Assembly: GCF_000193495.2 (NCBI RefSeq)
Contig: NZ_AP023410.1
Coordinates: 2,437,501-2,501,500, forward strand
Direction of reading: 5' to 3'
Length of the DNA stretch: 64,000 nt
From: Acetobacter aceti NBRC 14818
Lineage (GTDB): Bacteria > Pseudomonadota > Alphaproteobacteria > Acetobacterales > Acetobacteraceae
Part shown: piece after piece, positions 3,267 to 13,239 of the stretch
How positions within the stretch are numbered: the stretch's first letter is position 1
Layout of the letters: each line of letters starts with the position of its first letter
Notes under the pieces: model-generated
What the model saw: only the letters and a program-made list of their open reading frames with translations
The model's database searches: none
What the model was told of the DNA's origin: nothing
Program-made: the position numbers and the translations under genes

Positions 3267-3343
<77 letters not shown>

Positions 3344-3401: not shown

Positions 3402-3957
3402 CGCGTTTCCATTGCCCGACGCGACTGCCAGGATACCAGCAAGATCGCCCCGGACATCGATCTGTAGCCCCTTGTCGGACGGGGTGAGAATGATGGCCTC
3501 GATCACCTCGGCCGCCTCCTGGCGCTTCTCGTCCAGCTCCGAATGCAGCATGTCGTGCAGGCGCGCGAGTTGCCGATGATAGAACTCTGCCATCTGCGGG
3601 TGCAGCAAAGGCGGGGGTGCCTCGGCGGTGGCGAGGAAGTCCTTGAGTTCTGTCTTGCGGGCTTCGAGCTTCGATCCGCGCTCTTTGACCGTCTCGATCG
3701 AGATGGCTTCCGAAAGATAGAGGTCCATCAGGCGCTGGATGTCGCGCTCGACCCGCTTCAGTTCTGATTCCGCTGCGCCGATGTCGGCCGACGCCTCCAT
3801 GCGCAGTCGGTTCATCTCGGTGGTGAAGGCGGCGCAGAATTCGGCGAACAGGTCCGGGTCCATGAGATGGTGGCGCAGGGCATCGAGGACGCGCCGCTCC
3901 AGCTCCTCGCGACGGATATTGGTGCGGTTGTCGCATGTGCCCTTGTTGCGCGCGGTC

Positions 3958-3978
3958 GAGCAGCCGAGCAGCCGAGCA
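3958..3978 (+). repeat. 8-bp tandem duplication GAGCAGCC x2 plus a partial copy
   Basis: Units at 3958-3965 and 3966-3973 are identical and followed by GAGCA. Reading the recombinase with one unit removed gives LLGCSTARNKG; with both, the frame runs into LLGCSAARPRAT. Confidence 0.9.
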
Positions 3979-4991
3979 ATGTGCCGGAGATCATCGAATA
4001 GCCACCACCACAGCAGCCGCATTTGCTCAGGCCGGAGAAGAGATAGCGGGGGCGGCGTTTCTCGCGGAAATGGTCGGGCGATGATGTGTCGCGTGTGTCC
4101 CGGCTGGCGCTGACGCTGGCCTGCCGCGCCTTGACCGCGTCCCACAGCTCCTGGTCGACGATCCGCAGCTCCGGCACCTCCTGGATCACCCATTCGGATT
4201 CAGGATTGAGGCGCGAGACGCGCTTGCCGGTATCGGGATCCTTGATGAAACGCTGGCGGTTCCAGACCAGGCGCCCCACGTACATCTCGTTGTTGAGGAT
4301 GCCGGTGCCGCGTTCCCGATTGCCGTGAATGGTCGAAAAACCCCAGGCGCCGCTGCCTGGGGCAGGGATGCGTTCGTCGTTGAGACGGAAGGCGATGGCG
4401 CGCGGTCCCAGTCCGGCCGCGAAGTCACGGAAGATGCGACGGACCACCTCGGCTTCCGCTGGATTGATGGTGCGGTCGCCCCGGATCGGCTCGCCGTTGG
4501 CGTCGAGCTTGCGCACCACGTCATAGCCGTAGGCATTGCCGCCGCCGGACTTGCCCTGTTCGACCCGGCCTCGCAGGCCGCGATGCGTCTTCTCGGCCAG
4601 GTCTTTCAGAAACAGGGCGTTCATCGTGCCCTTGAGGCCGACATGCAGATGCGACACCTCGCCCTCGGAGAGAGTGACGATCCGCACGCCGGCATAGTTC
4701 ATGCGCTTGAAGACGCCGGCGATGTCCTCCTGGTCGCGGGACAGGCGGTCCATCGCCTCGGCCAGCACGATCTGGAACCGTCCGCGCTGCGCATCCGCGA
4801 TCAGCGCCTGAATGCCGGGCCGCATCAGGGACGCGCCCGAAATGGCGTGGTCGGTATAGTCCTCAACGATGGTCCAGCTCTGTTTCTCCGCGTGGGTTCG
4901 GCAGACGCGAAGCTGGTCGGCGATCGAGGCGTCACGCTGGTTGTCGGAGGAATAGCGGGCGTAGAGCGCGACCTTCATGACGAGGCATCCC

Positions 4992-5180
4992 TTACGGTCC
5001 GGAGCGGCGGCGCTGCTCCTGTTGCTGCGACCGGAACCAGTCCCGTGCCGCACGGCGCGCCATGAGGCGGACCAGCGCTATCAGGCGCGGGTCGGGGGTA
5101 TTGGGTCGCAGGACGAGCCGCAACTCGGGCTCGGGCGGCCGATACGCCGGGACAATGGACTGGTTGGGTCTGTCCGTCAT
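4992..5180 (-). CDS. Small helical protein encoded just upstream of the serine recombinase
   Basis: 62 residues starting MTDRPNQS, ending 13 bases before the recombinase start, so probably co-transcribed. The C-terminal half is a basic amphipathic helix (LIALVRLMARRAARDW). A comparable small gene, also starting MTD and carrying ALILVLARLLGRQIAREEF, lies upstream of the second recombinase (25195-25440). This suggests a companion of this recombinase family, perhaps an accessory or directionality factor; that role is inference. I recognise no named family. Confidence 0.6.
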   Translation of the reverse strand: MTDRPNQSIVPAYRPPEPELRLVLRPNTPDPRLIALVRLMARRAARDWFRSQQQEQRRRSGP

Positions 5181-5901: not shown

Positions 5902-7449
5902 TCAGTCGTTCCGGCCGCCACGTAGGCTTTGCCGCTTGCCTTCGCTTTTCTTCCAAGCCAGAACGCGCTGCGTTCCACCGGCGCCCCGCATCTTCGCGTA
6001 GCACTCGCCGACTTGGAGGTTCGCAAGGTTGGAGCCTTTACCGAAGATCCGATTGACAGCAGTCGTTTTCGCATTCGTTGTGAAAGCCACGGTTAGGCCC
6101 ATTTCGTTGAGGAAATCATCCTCCTCGCCGAGGAAATCATCTGGAGACTGACTAACCAACATAACCATGCCACCCTTGGATCGTGATTGGCGGATCAGCG
6201 ACGACAGTGATGGAAGCTTTGTGCTGAGGATCCGATGCGCTTCATCTACCATGCACAAGACGCGTAGCGCGCGATTGCCGTTGTCATCCTTGTCGGAGTC
6301 CGGCAAACTGTTTAGATGTCGATCGAGAGCGTCCAGCAATAAGTTCACGGTCATTGTCTGCGTCGCCTCGGGAACGGACTTCGGCAGATTAATGATCCAG
6401 CTTTGTTTGAAAAACTCGGAAGGCGAGAGCATTGGCTCAAATAGCGGGAAGCGACAGAGGTCTGTGATGGAGGCCAATGCACCGTCGTGCTTCATTCCGG
6501 AGCTCTGATATTCGCGTGACATTGCATCGCGGATGTCCGACAATCGGGTTGGACGGCGGGTGCGAAGCGCTTGTTCTGCCGCAGCGGCAACAATCTCGCG
6601 CTGCTTGTCGCCAAGCCGGGTGCCCTTGAGACGTCCGAACGAATCTCTGAACTGGTCGGCGGCTATTTTGACGTCGTAAGGGTCGGTGGAATTCAAGTAC
6701 AACACGTCCAGTGGGACCGGTTCACGCGGTGGCGAGATCACCGTGGCACTGAAGGTTTCGTTAAGCTTGTAGTCGCCGACGAGGTCACCCTTGAAGTCAA
6801 ACGCGAGTATGGGGACGGCGACCTCTTTGCGGAGTTGACGCAGCATAGCCATGGCAGTCCGGGTCTTGCCAGATCCGACGCCTCCCATGATTGCGCAATG
6901 TGGGCTTCCGCCTTCACCGGTTGCCGTCCAGACAATACGTTCATTAGTGGCGACGTTAAGTCCAACCTCGCCAATAAGCAGTTCGATCGAGGTTGGACTC
7001 GGACCGTCTTCCGACGACTCTTCAGCTTGGCTGCCGCTCAACAGTCCGGCGGAGTCGGTCAATCGCCTAGTAAACCGGGCAAGGTCACCTTCTACAGCGG
7101 ACCAATGATCGTCGAGGATATCTAAGCCGCGGCTCCAATGGTCGGCGACAAGCGCTTGGAAATCGCGGAGCGAAACGTCTAGCCGCCCGGAACGCTCGAC
7201 GATGAGGGCCACCCACGCAGCCAAATCGGTTCCTTGTCCGAAAAGCGTATCGCCCTTGATTGCGAGGCCGAGTTCGCCTTCCACCCGTTTGGGAGGCTCA
7301 GGCAGCGCAAGGCTACAGGCGATCGCTAGCCTCGCAGGTGCATAGCGCGCCTTCAAAGTGAGGCGCTCCATGAATTTCCGGTTGAGAGTATCTTTGCTTT
7401 CGTCGGTTCGAAAATTGGCTCCGACGATGTCGATCAGCGAGACGCTCAT
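5902..7449 (-). CDS. DndE-like domain fused to a HerA/FtsK-type ATPase
   Basis: 515 residues from ATG 7449, which overlaps the dndD stop (ATGA). Residues about 20-115 resemble the small DNA-binding protein DndE: a short helical bundle, the segment GDTLFGQGTDL, and a conserved His/Arg stretch HWSRGLDIL. After a linker comes a P-loop ATPase with Walker A GGVGSGKT (189-196) and Walker B LCMVDEAH (398-405), followed by a QSRSKGGMVMLVSQ segment typical of HerA/VirB4-like motors. In standard Dnd systems DndE is separate and motor proteins belong to the restriction partner, so this fusion may combine both roles. Function beyond ATPase and DNA handling is inferred. Confidence 0.78.
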   Translation of the reverse strand: MSVSLIDIVGANFRTDESKDTLNRKFMERLTLKARYAPARLAIACSLALPEPPKRVEGELGLAIKGDTLFGQGTDLAAWVALIVERSGRLDVSLRDFQALVADHWSRGLDILDDHWSAVEGDLARFTRRLTDSAGLLSGSQAEESSEDGPSPTSIELLIGEVGLNVATNERIVWTATGEGGSPHCAIMGGVGSGKTRTAMAMLRQLRKEVAVPILAFDFKGDLVGDYKLNETFSATVISPPREPVPLDVLYLNSTDPYDVKIAADQFRDSFGRLKGTRLGDKQREIVAAAAEQALRTRRPTRLSDIRDAMSREYQSSGMKHDGALASITDLCRFPLFEPMLSPSEFFKQSWIINLPKSVPEATQTMTVNLLLDALDRHLNSLPDSDKDDNGNRALRVLCMVDEAHRILSTKLPSLSSLIRQSRSKGGMVMLVSQSPDDFLGEEDDFLNEMGLTVAFTTNAKTTAVNRIFGKGSNLANLQVGECYAKMRGAGGTQRVLAWKKSEGKRQSLRGGRND

Positions 7450-9524
7450 GAGCGGCGATCCGTAAAATAACCTTCGACCGGCCAACTATGCCCGAATTCC
7501 ACGTCGTCCTCATGCTGGATGGTATACGTCTTCAGAATGCGTGGTCGGATCACGTCGAAGTATTCGCCGACTACTTCGCTATCGGTGGAGAGTAGAATTA
7601 CTTGACCATTGTTCTTGGCTAAGTGCTTCAGTACGTTTTTCCGGTGCTCCTCATCGAGGCGACCCATCGGAGTGTCGACAATCATTGGGAAAGTGCGCCT
7701 CGATACTTGAACGACGGCCGTTATCAATGCCTGCGTGAAGACCTGTTTCTCGCCCGCCGAAGGAAGGACTTCTCGGACGTCGCGGCCGCTCTTCGAAAGC
7801 ATCCGCACATTGCAGTCGCCGTCAATGTCGATGTGATCGATGCGCGCGCCCTTATGGGCAATCGCTTTGTAAGCGGCGGTCATGGCCTCGGCGACGGCTC
7901 CAATCTGAGAGGGAACGGCGTCGGCTCCGATCGCGTCCAGAAGGGCGGCGATCTGCTCTGCCTTAGCTGCCCGGCGCAATCCGGGGGCCGCCGCTCCCAG
8001 TTCAGACCGCAGCTTGCCGAGTTGAGCGCGTTTTTTGTCCCGTTCAGTGCGGGCTAGTTCAAGGTGGCTACGCACGCCGCCGATGTCGCGTTGTAAGGAA
8101 CCAAGGGTCGCAGACATCTCGGCCAATCGCGCGCGTTTGATGTCGAGATCGGGGGCAACCGATTGTGTGCGGTTGACTTCACCTTCGAGGCGCTTGATTT
8201 GCGTCTCATGGACTGTCTCTTCATCCAGCACTGAAACCACGCGCCCGGCGGCGAGACCGTCGAGGGCAATGAGGCGTTCCCTGGTTTTCTGCCGCTCGAA
8301 CCCGGTGAGATATGGGTGCCGGAATTCAGGCGCTGTGTCGTCGTCCGGCGGGTTCCATAGCTTGTCCCAAACCAGACGAACCTTATCCATAACCGCATCA
8401 CGCTGCTCGTCAACCAACGGAGGAATCACGTCCTCGACTGTCTTGCCAAGCGCGCTGACGAATGTATCCAAGCGACTATCGCCTTGGGCTTTCCCAGCCT
8501 CCCATTGCTCTCGGCGGTCTTCCTTACGAAGGCGTTCGGCAGTCTCTGCTCGCAATTCACGCCCGCAGAGCGCTAGTGCCAGGTCGCCGACAAGCATCGC
8601 TTGCAGCCGGGAGCGAGCAGCATCCAGATCGCTTCGGTGCTGTTGAATTCGTTGCAAAAGTTCCTGCAAATTTGCCTGAGTGCCATTGCCGTAGCTCATC
8701 AGGTCGCGTGTCAGGCGGTCTTGTTCGGATTCCATTGAAGCGATGTGGGCTTCCATCGCGATGGCTTTCTCGTTCGAATCCAAAATATCCTTATCCAGAT
8801 CCTCGACTTCCTGTTCCAGCCGGACGACCGTGTCGCCCGTTGTGCCGGAAGGCTTCCCTTTCGATTTGGCGTAGTCCCGAAGGTCACTGGCAAGATCGCG
8901 CAAGACCGGCAGCCCAAGAAGACCTTCAACGCCGACCTTGACCTGAGTCGCCATCTCGCGTTCGGCGAATGTTCCGACCATCTCTCCGTCGAATAGAAAA
9001 AACCATCCGAGATAATAGGGGAGAAAAGTGGAGGCGACGTAGTCTTTAAACCAGTCAATTCGTTCTGCGCCAGTGAGCCTCGCAGGTCCGACGGCTTTGC
9101 GAACTGTCCCGGCGAAAGCGCGCGGATCCTCCTCAAATGGCTTGAATTGGCCGCCGGCGGTGAACCACCAAGTCCTTTGGAGCACAAGCGGCTGGCCTTC
9201 GTCGTCGTCGAAAACGAGTTCGACAGAACATGAAGTTCTGCCGTCGGCCAAGGCTCGTTTGTTCAGCACCCCTTGCATGAACGTCGAATAACTAACCTGG
9301 AGCCGGTCCGTGGTGGTGCCACCGAATTCTGCCGTAGCAATCAGTGGCATCCCGCTCTGGCCAAAGAGTCCAAGAACAATGGCGTGAAATAGCGAAGTCT
9401 TGCCATAGCCGTTCCTGGCACCGATCAGCACGACATTTTTGCGGTCAGTCGGCGCTGGGAAGTCGAAGCGAACGGCACCCGAGTATGCCCGCCAATCGCG
9501 GAGGACGATGGACCTCAGATGCAT
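7446..9524 (-). CDS. dndD: DndD-like SMC/Rad50-type ATPase of DNA phosphorothioation
   Basis: 692 residues, the usual DndD size. Walker A is split-SMC style at the N-terminus (GARNGYGKTS, 35-44). Long coiled-coil stretches follow around 230-310 and 430-520. The ABC signature and Walker B come at the C-terminus (LPSAGEKQVF, then FPMIVDTPMGRLD). DndD is thought to supply ATPase or nicking activity during sulfur incorporation into the DNA backbone. The start at 9524 overlaps the preceding small gene by ATGA, and the stop overlaps the next gene, so translation is probably coupled. Confidence 0.88.
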   Translation of the reverse strand: MHLRSIVLRDWRAYSGAVRFDFPAPTDRKNVVLIGARNGYGKTSLFHAIVLGLFGQSGMPLIATAEFGGTTTDRLQVSYSTFMQGVLNKRALADGRTSCSVELVFDDDEGQPLVLQRTWWFTAGGQFKPFEEDPRAFAGTVRKAVGPARLTGAERIDWFKDYVASTFLPYYLGWFFLFDGEMVGTFAEREMATQVKVGVEGLLGLPVLRDLASDLRDYAKSKGKPSGTTGDTVVRLEQEVEDLDKDILDSNEKAIAMEAHIASMESEQDRLTRDLMSYGNGTQANLQELLQRIQQHRSDLDAARSRLQAMLVGDLALALCGRELRAETAERLRKEDRREQWEAGKAQGDSRLDTFVSALGKTVEDVIPPLVDEQRDAVMDKVRLVWDKLWNPPDDDTAPEFRHPYLTGFERQKTRERLIALDGLAAGRVVSVLDEETVHETQIKRLEGEVNRTQSVAPDLDIKRARLAEMSATLGSLQRDIGGVRSHLELARTERDKKRAQLGKLRSELGAAAPGLRRAAKAEQIAALLDAIGADAVPSQIGAVAEAMTAAYKAIAHKGARIDHIDIDGDCNVRMLSKSGRDVREVLPSAGEKQVFTQALITAVVQVSRRTFPMIVDTPMGRLDEEHRKNVLKHLAKNNGQVILLSTDSEVVGEYFDVIRPRILKTYTIQHEDDVEFGHSWPVEGYFTDRRS

Positions 9525-9748
9525 CAGGCGGCATCCTCACTCATTCGGTCGATGATCTCGTCAAACTGATCCCAGAGGCCGGCCTTACGCTGACGTCCGA
9601 CCTGATCGGCCTCGATTTCCACCAGTTCACGTAAATCCGCGATGCGGATCCCGGCTGCACGACAATGTTTGCGCACAAGCGCTTCGCCCTCTTTGGTTGA
9701 GAATAGGACTACAGCATCCTTAGGCATGTCGATATCAGCCTTCCACAT
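9524..9748 (-). CDS. Small protein between dndC and dndD
   Basis: 74 residues (67 if started at the Met codon at 9727). It is acidic with a helix-rich pattern and no Cys pair typical of DndE. Its stop overlaps the dndD start by ATGA, and its first possible start lies 14 bases inside the dndC 3' end, which argues for a real translated gene. I recall that small proteins of unknown role are encoded in DNA-modification clusters of this kind, but cannot assign a function. DndE itself appears instead as the N-terminal domain of the protein at 5902-7449. Confidence 0.65.
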   Translation of the reverse strand: MWKADIDMPKDAVVLFSTKEGEALVRKHCRAAGIRIADLRELVEIEADQVGRQRKAGLWDQFDEIIDRMSEDAA

Positions 9749-10895
9749 GTGGGTCTTCGGCCCGTTCCGCCGCTACGCGGCCTGAATTATTCATTGCGTC
9801 ATCACGCCACACTTCGCGGATCCGGGCTATCTCTTCACTTGAAATGAGTTCGCGACCCATATGTTGCTGGATAGCAAGAAGCCGCCGCAGAATTTCAGCA
9901 CGCGTGTCCGGCGTGAACGGACCTGGCACAAAGGTTCCGGCTTCACTGACTGTGAATTTGCCATTGCGGCGACGAGCAGAACGAAGATTGGGATCGTTCC
10001 GGATCTGCGATAGCCAATCCCGGAATTCAAGCAGCGGCCCGAACTCCGCAAATCCGGCTTCGACGAAGCCTTCCAAACTCCGATCCTTCTCGACGACAGT
10101 GCAGGTCCAGCATCCGAACCGCGACGACGACGTTCCACAAGAAGGGGCATCCGATTTACCCGTGACCACCGGACACTCGCCCCCCAACGAGTTGCGGTAG
10201 AGAGAAATCAGTTCGGTATGCGAGGCTCCCCACGGCGGCGGGTACGTGCCGAGGAACTCCCACACGTTTTCAGTCGTCAAGTCGACAATCGGGCGAAATA
10301 CCATGCACCCTACCATGTCATTATGACGGTTTAGGCGCTGCCCATTGTCGTATTTGGCCACGGAAACAGCGCGCCTAGCGGACTCGTCCCGCCGGACGCC
10401 AAGCAGCAGGATGACCTGTCCGGTAGTGTCTACCTGCTCGCGAATATAGCGCGACGTTGGTTGGATTTTCATCCGGTCGGTGCACCACCGGAAGCTTCGA
10501 TTCGGGGACGGGTAGCCGCGTCCGATCAGATTCACCCAGAACGTGCCGTCCAAGGTTGGCTGGGTGGTCACGACTTTTACCGGCAAGTTGAAGGCTTCGG
10601 CGGCTTCCCGCATTTGGGCTTGCACCGTTTTGATGTGCCCGATTACTAGCGGCGACTCAACCAGGGTATCGTTCGCGACAATATGAACGGTGCGTCGACG
10701 CTGGCTAGGGGAAATATTTAGAAGCATCTCGAAGACGAGATGAGCTACCAGGGTCGAGTCTTTGCCACCAGAGAAGCCTACGATCCACGGATGCGGTAGG
10801 TCGGAGAAGTATTCGGATCTGATTTCCTCGCGAATTGCCTTGATCTTGATCTCCAGATCATCATCGGCATCCGCAAATAGTAGGGTTTGGCTCAT
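9735..10895 (-). CDS. dndC: DndC-like sulfurtransferase (PAPS-reductase fold)
   Basis: 386 residues. The P-loop SGGKDST (42-48) is that of ATP pyrophosphatases. WVNLIGRGYPSP then FRWCTDRMKI and GCWTCTVVEKD give the cysteine arrangement that holds an iron-sulfur cluster in DndC. The enzyme activates the DNA phosphate for sulfur transfer from a cysteine desulfurase (DndA or IscS). No dndA, dndB or dndFGH is nearby, so the sulfur donor would be a host IscS elsewhere. First gene of the operon dndC / small gene / dndD / dndE-HerA. Confidence 0.9.
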   Translation of the reverse strand: MSQTLLFADADDDLEIKIKAIREEIRSEYFSDLPHPWIVGFSGGKDSTLVAHLVFEMLLNISPSQRRRTVHIVANDTLVESPLVIGHIKTVQAQMREAAEAFNLPVKVVTTQPTLDGTFWVNLIGRGYPSPNRSFRWCTDRMKIQPTSRYIREQVDTTGQVILLLGVRRDESARRAVSVAKYDNGQRLNRHNDMVGCMVFRPIVDLTTENVWEFLGTYPPPWGASHTELISLYRNSLGGECPVVTGKSDAPSCGTSSSRFGCWTCTVVEKDRSLEGFVEAGFAEFGPLLEFRDWLSQIRNDPNLRSARRRNGKFTVSEAGTFVPGPFTPDTRAEILRRLLAIQQHMGRELISSEEIARIREVWRDDAMNNSGRVAAERAEDPHVEG

Positions 10896-11228: not shown

Positions 11229-11483
11229 ATGCATCTCAACATCAAAAACGACGAGGCGCACAGGCTGGCCGCCGAACTGGCCCGCCTGACCGGCGAAAAC
11301 CTCACATCGGCCGTGACGACGGCCCTGCGTGAGCGCCTCGACCGGGAGCGGCGGCGCCATGCCCGCAACGACGTCGCCGAACGGCTTATGACGATCGGGC
11401 GGCGTTACGCGGCACTCCCTGACGGGGCGTCTACGGATCCCGATGCGATCCTCGGGTATGACGAGAACGGCGTGCCTGTATGA
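11229..11483 (+). CDS. vapB: VapB-type antitoxin (PSK/Rv0623-like)
   Basis: 84 residues. The N-terminal segment MHLNIKNDEAHRLAAELA and the following TSAVTTALRERLDRE match short VapB antitoxins with a ribbon-helix-helix-like DNA-binding part. The C-terminus is an unstructured toxin-binding tail. It overlaps the toxin gene by ATGA. It should neutralise VapC and repress the operon together with it. Confidence 0.85.
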   Translation: MHLNIKNDEAHRLAAELARLTGENLTSAVTTALRERLDRERRRHARNDVAERLMTIGRRYAALPDGASTDPDAILGYDENGVPV

Positions 11484-11905
11484 TCGTCGTCGATACGTCG
11501 GCAGTCATCGCCATTTTCCGACAGGAACCAGAGGCTGCCGATTTCGCCACGCGCATCGGAAACGATGACGACCCGGTGATTTCGGCCGCCACGGTGGTCG
11601 AAGCGTCCCTTGTGCTCCGGGGCCTGAAACAGATCAGTCCCACCAGGGCGGAAGCCTGGCTGGACGAGTTCATCCGTATCGCCGGAATGCGGATCGAGCC
11701 GGTAACACCAGAGCAGGCGGCTCTCGCACGGGACGCGCATATCCGGTTCGGAAAAGGCACGGGACATCCGGCGGGCCTGAATTACGGCGACTGTTTTTCC
11801 TACGCGCTGGCAAAAGCTATGGGGGCGCCCCTCCTGTTCAAGGGAGAGGATTTCACGAGAACCGATGTCTTGCGGCTCATTGTCGACCCGTCCGACAAGT
11901 TCTGA
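11480..11905 (+). CDS. vapC: VapC-type PIN-domain ribonuclease toxin
   Basis: 141 residues. PIN-domain acidic residues are visible in MIVVDTSAVIAI (Asp5), VVEASLVL (Glu) and LNYGDCFSYALA (Asp), with a final Asp-containing strand PLLFKGEDF. VapC toxins cleave tRNA or rRNA when the antitoxin is degraded. It is paired with vapB and probably stabilises this part of the island. Confidence 0.9.
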   Translation: MIVVDTSAVIAIFRQEPEAADFATRIGNDDDPVISAATVVEASLVLRGLKQISPTRAEAWLDEFIRIAGMRIEPVTPEQAALARDAHIRFGKGTGHPAGLNYGDCFSYALAKAMGAPLLFKGEDFTRTDVLRLIVDPSDKF

Positions 11906-12271: not shown

Positions 12272-12558
12272 AACAAGTCTCCTTGCGGCACGGGTATTCA
12301 GAATATCCTGAATCGTTTTTGTATTGCATCAAAATTTGACTGTTCCGATGTAGAAAATTCGAAAGACCATGAAAAAGAAGAGAAAAAACTTGGGGCGCTG
12401 CCCCCGGCGCACTTCGTAACGTCTTCCGCCCAGCTTCCTTCGCTGCGCTCCGTGCAGCCGGTTCCCCGCGAAGCCGTCACTCCGTTTTCACCCCCGCTGC
12501 TCGCCGCGAGGCAGTGGAACAGCGGGGGCTGTTCCTCGCGGAACAAAGGGCAAAGACC
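12272..12558. other. Intergenic region upstream of the methyltransferase gene
   Basis: No supported gene. It holds an inverted repeat CCCCCGCTG/CAGCGGGGG at 12491-12528, just before the methyltransferase start, which could form a hairpin in the mRNA leader. Confidence 0.5.
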
Positions 12559-13239
12559 ATGACCGGCAACACCAACACGGCAGCCGATTACCGCAATACC
12601 ATCCTCAATGGCGATAGCGTGCAGCTTATGCGCGGACTACCCCGCAATGCGGTGGATTTCATCCTGACAGACCCGCCTTACCTGGTGAACTATCAGGGCA
12701 GGGACGGGCGGAAGGTTCGCAACGACGACAATGCGCGTTGGCTCCGACCGGCCTTCAACCAGATGCACCGTGTCCTCAAATGCGGCGGCTTTGCCATTTC
12801 GTTCTATGGCTGGAACCGGATTGATCTGTTTGCCGATGCCTGGAAGGCGGCCGGGTTCCGCATGGTCGGGCATATCGTCTTTCGCATGTCCTATTCGTCC
12901 TCTTCCCGGTTTCTTCGGTATGAACATGAAAGCGCCTATCTGCTGGCCAAGGACAACGTGACACCGCCCGCAAAGCCCATCCCGGACGTGATTGACATGC
13001 CCTATTCGGGAAACAGGTTGCACCCGACGCAAAAGCCGGTGGCTTCACTCCTGCCCCTGGTGGAAGCCTTTTGCCCGGTGGGTGGGCTGGTTCTGGACCC
13101 GTTCGCCGGTTCGGGTTCATCCCTGGTGGCGGCGCAGCATCTTGGCCGCGACTGGCTGGGTATGGAACTGGACTCGGACCATGCAGCCACGGCAACCCGT
13201 CGGCTGGCCTGGCACGGGGCGGCGAGGGCGGCGGCTTAA
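12559..13239 (+). CDS. DNA adenine methyltransferase, DPPY type
   Basis: 226 residues from ATG 12559; an upstream GTG at 12514 lies in the hairpin region and is less likely. The catalytic motif TDPPY is at 37-41 and the AdoMet-binding motif LDPFAGSGSS near 180. This order (catalytic motif first) is that of the beta class of amino-methyltransferases such as CcrM. No restriction endonuclease is adjacent, so it looks like a solitary methylase of the mobile element, perhaps protecting it from host restriction. Target sequence unknown. Confidence 0.88.
   Translation: MTGNTNTAADYRNTILNGDSVQLMRGLPRNAVDFILTDPPYLVNYQGRDGRKVRNDDNARWLRPAFNQMHRVLKCGGFAISFYGWNRIDLFADAWKAAGFRMVGHIVFRMSYSSSSRFLRYEHESAYLLAKDNVTPPAKPIPDVIDMPYSGNRLHPTQKPVASLLPLVEAFCPVGGLVLDPFAGSGSSLVAAQHLGRDWLGMELDSDHAATATRRLAWHGAARAAA

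Follow-up and report, generated by a model that had tools for sequence, protein, structure and literature searches.

Does a phosphorothioation-type operon that joins DndE to a HerA motor in one protein, and has no restriction genes beside it, act in defence by itself, and what does the short gene between its dndC and dndD contribute? We addressed this for an operon in a 64-kb stretch of the Acetobacter aceti NBRC 14818 genome (the window), whose minus strand carries, from position 10895 to 5902, a row of four genes: dndC, the gene of a small protein (SP), dndD and dndE-herA. An initial annotation had named these four genes here and a phosphorothioation-like operon with no dndA, dndB or dndFGH; all four were found on this strand, and none of the absent genes lies beside them. 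The 74-residue gene, left unexplained in that annotation, was the most informative part of the operon. The operon and its flanks comprise the following features.

9735 to 10895, minus strand: dndC, short form, 386 aa (TIGR03183, SGGKDS motif, conserved cysteines)
9524 to 9748, minus strand: SP gene, 74 codons (probable start 9727, giving 67 aa), with apparent homology to the DndD-docking region at the C-terminus of full-length DndC
7446 to 9524, minus strand: dndD, 692 aa, ABC ATPase with coiled coil and without CxC (TIGR03185, SAGEKQ and VDTP)
5902 to 7449, minus strand: dndE-herA, 515 aa, DndEi type (DndE domain at about 1–125, HerA motor at about 153–500)
11229 to 11905, plus strand: vapBC-type pair adjoining the operon, divergent (PF07704 and PF01850)
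3812 to 5053, minus strand: large serine recombinase (PF00239, PF07508) beside tRNA-Met (3267–3343)

The initial annotation had described the genes as coupled by ATGA or longer overlaps, which is correct for dndD and dndE-herA (4 nt, ATGA at 7449). SP and dndD share 1 nt (TGATG), and dndC and SP overlap by 14 nt only if the 74-codon start (9748) is used, the overlap being zero with a start at Met8 (9727). The latter start is preferred because several homologues begin there and GGAAGG lies upstream. The listed TTG start of the fusion (7485) only adds 12 residues before the ATG at 7449, so the fusion was taken as 515 rather than 527 residues; it most likely starts at this ATG inside the overlap with dndD. 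The four-gene row is not a chance arrangement, because the identical order recurs in records of other organisms, with a HerA motor in Methylorubrum extorquens AM1 (L006, where the operon is on the megaplasmid), locus L001, genome G155 and viral contig L035, and with an FtsK motor in Rhizobium phaseoli, Aureimonas and Burkholderia glumae. The G + C content of the operon region is 0.57 versus 0.64–0.71 in the stretch at 32–40 kb, and plasmid-type genes (RepA, DUF736, DUF2840, a relaxase-like protein and a second serine recombinase) occur farther out. Judged from composition and gene content, the region looks like a mobile island, of which the serine recombinase/tRNA-Met site is possibly the edge.

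The window DndC matched TIGR03183 with 370.5 bits (cut-off 290.4) over model positions 2–366 of 447, and its match to a DndC profile stopped at position 375 of 472. Its SGGKDS motif and Cys138, 241, 253, 262 and 265 are intact, and these features identify it as a PP-loop sulfurtransferase that lacks the C-terminal segment found in full-length DndC. A frameshift or sequencing error in dndC was ruled out, as the dndC/SP split is conserved across loci. In a tree of 23 DndC rows, given a midpoint root for display only, nine DndCs of the SP type formed one side of a branch with support 94/94, within which three FtsK rows (100/100) and five HerA rows (95/94) separated. The DndC of M. amorphae, whose first DndE is separate and which has a second ABC ATPase followed by a DndE-FtsK fusion, fell outside these eight FtsK/HerA rows (98/96).

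The window DndD matched TIGR03185 over positions 1–687 with 231.9 bits (E 1.5e-68), a full-length match to an ABC ATPase family just below the curated cut-off of 245.85. It carries SAGEKQ and VDTP, and its P-loop, in which N38, G39, G41, K42 and T43 are invariant, reads ARNGYGKT and does not fit the simple pattern G....GK[TS]. The best PADLOC model for this protein is labelled PbeC (1108 bits); despite this label, membership among the CxC ATPases or PbeABCD systems was ruled out by the absence of a CxC motif, which the CxC ATPase of R. leguminosarum, used as a control, does show. The relatives of the window DndD in R. phaseoli and Aureimonas are named dndD by NCBI. No protein of the PbeA type (HKD nuclease-SF2 helicase) was matched among 17 window proteins scanned with Pfam, a subset of the ORFs within 140–20316.

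The DndE-HerA fusion proposed in the initial annotation proved real, though the Pfam search for its DndE domain gave 19.4 bits, below the cut-off of 25, with the window protein itself; the HerA-type homologues of M. extorquens AM1 (31.8 bits) and L035 (28.8 bits) passed. Proteins of the "DndE family" on Rhizobium and Mesorhizobium plasmids matched residues 3–113 and 2–115 with 52% and 45% identity, respectively. An AlphaFold2 model built from three sequences had a mean pLDDT of 64.4, mostly 70–90 over residues 1–130 (moderate confidence), and its N-terminal part runs strand-helix-helix, twice. Against the objection that the N-terminal domain might have no DndE-like fold, model residues 3–123 aligned with solved DndE 7x4e (Z 13.9, rmsd 2.4, 111 aligned) and residues 3–114 with solved DndE 4lrv (Z 11.7, rmsd 2.1, 101 aligned), consistent with the double ribbon-helix-helix fold of DndE. 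Residues 153–498 aligned with the DndH C-terminal domain 7es4 (Z 22.0, rmsd 4.0, 316 aligned). The DndE matches came from VIA-align; a Foldseek search with the whole model gave only motor matches among the 50 best rows. PF01935 and PF10412 both scored above cut-off, and the motor carries a Walker A motif at 189–196 and VDEAH at 401–405. As modelled, the protein is a true DndE domain followed by a HerA motor nearest to the C-terminal domain of DndH, that is, DndE and a helicase-type motor in one polypeptide (DndEi type).

Across 385 genomes of the class, the fusion protein was found convincingly in three, one of them the window's own, with a fourth match (G293, E 6.2e-4) that covers 69 residues; among near relatives it was found in 1 of 41 genomes, the window's own, and in the phylum in 2 of 398, the window's own and G626, the latter matching profile residues 134–448 only. 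These three genome draws overlap. The fused motor of R. phaseoli and Aureimonas consists of FtsK_alpha and FtsK/SpoIIIE, with Pfam DndE scores of 27.5 bits (above cut-off) and 21.4 bits (below), respectively. B. glumae has the same motor and no Pfam DndE match at E 0.01; its DndE was detected by a profile built partly from the B. glumae sequence. The viral locus L056 also has an FtsK motor, with DndE at 25.2 bits.

The window SP, scanned as a single sequence, matched PADLOC DndC models at positions 389–457 (E 5.8e-4 and 1.3e-3), and six of the seven other SPs scanned with PADLOC matched the same C-terminal part of DndC, the exception being that of L035. With NCBIfam, the end of TIGR03183 was matched by five of seven SPs (window, L009, L023, L024 and L025; E 0.003–0.03), and those of L006 and L008 had no match. 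An SP profile compared with a profile of nine full-length DndC proteins aligned to columns 405–459 (probability 94.7, E 6.4e-8) with a score of 53.6, the best of 200 column shuffles reaching 27.5. When a profile of ten SPs was searched against 5360 six-frame ORFs, the SPs ranked first, including that of L007, which was absent from profile building, and the next nine matches fell on the C-terminal ends of full-length DndC proteins (E 2e-6 to 1.3e-3 for six, a weak 0.02–0.74 for three), followed by a 35-aa ORF at 0.84; four loci with full-length DndC (L026, L032, L040 and L041) gave no match in this search. In reverse, a profile of the nine DndC tails searched against 10919 ORFs (some loci overlap) recovered eight different SPs with E between 1e-7 and 2.4e-3 (L056, L024, L023, L009, L008, L025, L055/L059 and L007) and those of L006 and L062 at 0.09–0.1, the first ORF that is neither SP nor DndC appearing at 0.25. 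The window SP was not significant in this reverse search (E 5.5), nor were those of L001, L020 and L035, so its link to DndC rests on the SP family and on the PADLOC DndC models. The window SP therefore looks like a homologue of the DndD-docking C-terminal segment of full-length DndC, with significance in only some of the tests. Of the small proteins of CxC systems, considered as possible relatives of this SP, the two scanned (L027 and L030) matched no PADLOC model, and that of L027 no NCBIfam model either. The Aureimonas SP had one weak PADLOC match to PbeB (E 0.0035).

The docking segment itself has been mapped in Escherichia coli B7A, where DndC residues 433–482 were modelled on the DndD globular domain and the triple substitution L458D/E462A/R471A disrupted DndD binding in pull-downs (PMC12193691). 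The E. coli DndC of L034 has L458, E462 and R471 at exactly those numbers. All 14 SPs have Leu where the alignment places residue 458; at the counterpart of 462 they have Glu in six cases, Gln in six and another residue in two, and at that of 471 Lys or Arg in nine, Ala in four and Asn in one. The operon would hence supply the DndD-docking segment of DndC as a separate gene, the docking being predicted from homology. The SP model has three helices with a mean pLDDT of 82.5, an ordered structure unlike the small proteins of CxC systems, which were described as mostly disordered (PMC10853773).

The occurrence of SP follows the length of DndC. Of 22 loci with both dndC and dndD, 11 had a short DndC with SP and 11 a full-length DndC without SP, with no mixed cases. 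This count was drawn from 28 loci picked from earlier matches, many of them from DndC searches, and six were dropped beforehand: L021, which ends at a contig edge and shows no dndC; L026 and L033, which have a full-length DndC but lack dndD in the stretch; and L047–L049, with a short DndC and neither SP nor dndD. SP presence was already known at profile building in 10 of the 11 SP loci; the independent cases are L007 and, later, L055/L059, L056/L061 and L062. Because the two groups separate along a single branch of the DndC tree, the 11/11 division may represent one evolutionary event, not eleven.

Related genes occur in viruses. In L035, a 15.5-kb portion of a 43.1-kb viral contig, the operon is flanked by a replication-initiation-type gene and a gene for a small terminase, and PF03354 did not find TerL on that contig. 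On L056, a separate contig of 39.8 kb, an integrase, a repressor and a tail protein are encoded alongside the operon. The operon of L055/L059 is cut by the contig end, and in L062 dndC and SP stand among phage-family genes with no dndD within the 15-kb stretch. Among 31 viral loci surveyed, several of which are the same contig, two more with dndD have a full DndC (L064 and L068); a long DndC occurs without visible dndD in L067, L069, L070 and L072, and a short DndC with neither SP nor dndD in, for example, L065, L071 and L074. The long DndCs without dndD, together with L062, argue against a strict rule that the docking segment always accompanies dndD. Among 50,697 named phage records, three matched the window DndD and 20 the window DndC, two short "Bacteriophage sp." records (MT838064 and MT838014) matching both. 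The presence of dndC on phages is not new, since single dndC genes on rhizobial phages have been published (PMC12429752, PMC13299392). The phage-borne copies raise the question of whether sulfur serves phages as a mark on their own DNA.

Taken from sequence and homology, the locus is probably a DndEi-type DNA phosphorothioation (modification) operon in which SP is the detached docking segment of DndC and the fused motor serves modification. A housekeeping cysteine desulfurase would load sulfur onto DndC, and SP would tie DndC to the ATPase head of DndD, as its homology to the E. coli docking segment suggests. The DndE domain would read the DNA and bind the coiled coil of DndD, and the HerA motor, by analogy with published DndEi, could open DNA or travel on it and thereby bring the complex to its sites, where sulfur would be transferred. 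For the sulfur supply, PF00266 (cysteine-desulfurase/aminotransferase class V fold) had 10 matches elsewhere in the genome, counted for the fold as a whole. An annotated TusA gene lies behind the fusion in R. phaseoli and Aureimonas, and one (PF01206) is convergent to the fusion on L035. The operon showed no restriction component; should the mark serve defence, the effector would be elsewhere or missing.

The initial annotation had instead suggested that the motor also provides the defence action, making a self-contained variant in which the DndE-HerA protein would take hold of foreign DNA and be the agent that blocks or destroys it. HerA motors do occur in other defence complexes (DndH 7es4, SIR2-HerA and DUF4297-HerA were among the structure matches), and the operon lies in the apparent mobile island. 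However, scans with Pfam, NCBIfam and PADLOC matched no nuclease or other effector domain in the four operon proteins, which leaves self-contained defence unsupported, and the whole genome gave no match to DndB (PF14072), DGQHR or GmrSD_N, with positive controls in each case. TIGR03238 (dnd_assoc_3) also had no genome match, but its controls were silent too. The DndH model PDLC02684 had as its sole genome-wide match the HerA domain of the window fusion, and that search gave no multi-domain DndH with a nuclease domain. Published DndEi, moreover, acts in modification, its helicase activity being reportedly essential for phosphorothioation (PMID 26631733), and we consider a self-contained defence system improbable.

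It is similarly improbable that the operon makes a modification other than backbone sulfur or is an inactive relic. Other chemistry has a precedent in methylase-linked systems, for which a DndDE core was proposed to recruit it (PMC10853773), and both the PbeC label of the window DndD and a DNA-methylase-like ORF at 12514–13239 would fit; yet that ORF lies on the opposite strand beyond the vapBC pair, the DndD has no CxC motif, and dndC, with its motifs intact, belongs to the same tight gene row. A further view takes SP as what a frameshift has left of an ordinary DndC, or as an unrelated regulator (a negative regulator or viral sensor). A frameshift would yield just such a match to the missing C-terminal part, and the SP of CxC systems has been proposed as a regulator (PMC10853773). 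Against both versions, SP is a separate gene right behind dndC in twelve distinct loci (window, L001, L006, L009, L020, L023, L024, L025, L035, L055/L059, L056/L061 and L062) and stands after dndE in L007 and L008, the nine DndCs with SP share one side of the tree branch, and the SP model is ordered and helical; this view is unlikely.

Within the modification reading, we regard as evenly balanced the more specific proposal that SP is a free-standing DndD adaptor, a DndC docking tail turned into its own gene, so that an exchangeable clip connects the sulfurtransferase with the DNA-scanning ATPase. If so, the modifying enzyme could be attached to or freed from one ATPase-DndE-motor engine, at least some "DNA modification system-associated small proteins" would be recast from regulators to adaptors, and a phage dndC with an adaptor and no visible dndD could plug into the engine of its host. 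Reading SP as a DndC tail would account for some DndC proteins being about 100 residues shorter and gives the "associated small protein" a testable role in which partner, surface and residues are all specified. The same operon in M. extorquens AM1, a laboratory strain, makes this role practical to test. The statement that SP corresponds to a DndC tail was not found in the literature searched, which included parts of PMC10853773, and the link is apparently an insight not yet remarked in print.

The operon can be placed among known systems as follows. It has DndC, DndD and DndE in common with classical DndBCDE, in which DndC is full length, DndE is separate and no SP lies between dndC and dndD. 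Its HerA part is related to the C-terminal domain of DndH in DndFGH (DptFGH), with no other DndH domain found. The plasmid operons of R. phaseoli, Aureimonas and B. glumae, annotated as dndC, "DNA modification system-associated small protein", dndD and "DNA translocase FtsK", share the four-gene order, the short DndC and SP, and differ in having the FtsK_alpha and FtsK/SpoIIIE motor, not HerA, and then an annotated TusA gene in two of the three. The initial annotation held that known systems keep DndE separate, which the literature contradicts. DndEi, in which DndE carries a further helicase domain, was described by Zheng et al. (2016, JBC, PMID 26631733), and dndEi was reported in Bacteroidales (PMC7464106). 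For some phosphorothioation systems, Rakesh, Aravind and Krishnan (2024, PMC10853773) described a HerA/FtsK clade whose domains are fused to DndE, with a DndD-related ATPase next to them. A DndE-HerA fusion is accordingly not new. Likened by description rather than by sequence, DndEi and the window protein both join DndE to an additional helicase domain within a phosphorothioation gene set, and DndE-clade-3 HerA/FtsK of PMC10853773 has the same architecture and neighbours, the window HerA being closest to that of DndH. The parts of PMC10853773 considered here contain neither a link between SP and DndC nor a DndE fused to FtsK-alpha plus an FtsK motor. The operon is a further member of the published DndE-motor type, and its fusion adds one more chromosomal example of that architecture.

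The top PADLOC label for DndD was PbeC, both for the window protein (7446-9524) and for that of R. phaseoli. The CxC motif, which marks the ABC ATPase of CxC ATPase/PbeABCD systems, was absent from both, and a PbeC label on a DndD lacking this motif may mislead counts of defence systems.

A TusA sulfur-carrier gene adjoined the fusion gene in several comparison loci (L numbers, own coordinates); its product might relay sulfur in the absence of dndA:
L009 9554-9757, TusA gene
L023 12857-13093, TusA gene
L035 8550-8792, TusA gene

L047, L048 and L049, loci in three genomes of the class, encoded a short DndC without SP (the small protein gene) or dndD; its gene adjoined others whose proteins, judged by eye, resemble DUF262, and an ORF that by eye is desulfurase-like lay upstream in L047.

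Complete or partial dndC-SP-dndD-dndE-motor operons were found on viral contigs (L035, L056, L055/L059 and L062), one of them with a replication gene on one side and a small-terminase gene on the other; in L062, dndC-SP was present and dndD was not visible. Pairs of vapBC type lay close to three operons of this kind, in the window, L008 and L009.
L035 3418-8545, dndC-SP-dndD-dndE-motor operon (IMGVR_UViG_3300003965_000020)
window 11229-11905, vapBC-type pair
L008 640-1283, vapBC-type pair
L009 1-399, vapBC-type pair
window 3267-31041, features suggestive of a mobile island (tRNA-Met, two serine recombinases, RepA, DUF736, DUF2840, S26 peptidase, relaxase-like DUF3363 protein)

Unlike in the window, DndE was fused to an FtsK-type motor rather than HerA in the following loci, whose operons were otherwise alike or had a second ABC ATPase:
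L009 7995-9521, DndE-FtsK-type fusion
L023 11337-12860, DndE-FtsK-type fusion
L024 11323-12864, DndE-FtsK-type fusion
L056 8158-9687, DndE-FtsK-type fusion
L008 10693-12183, DndE-FtsK-type fusion
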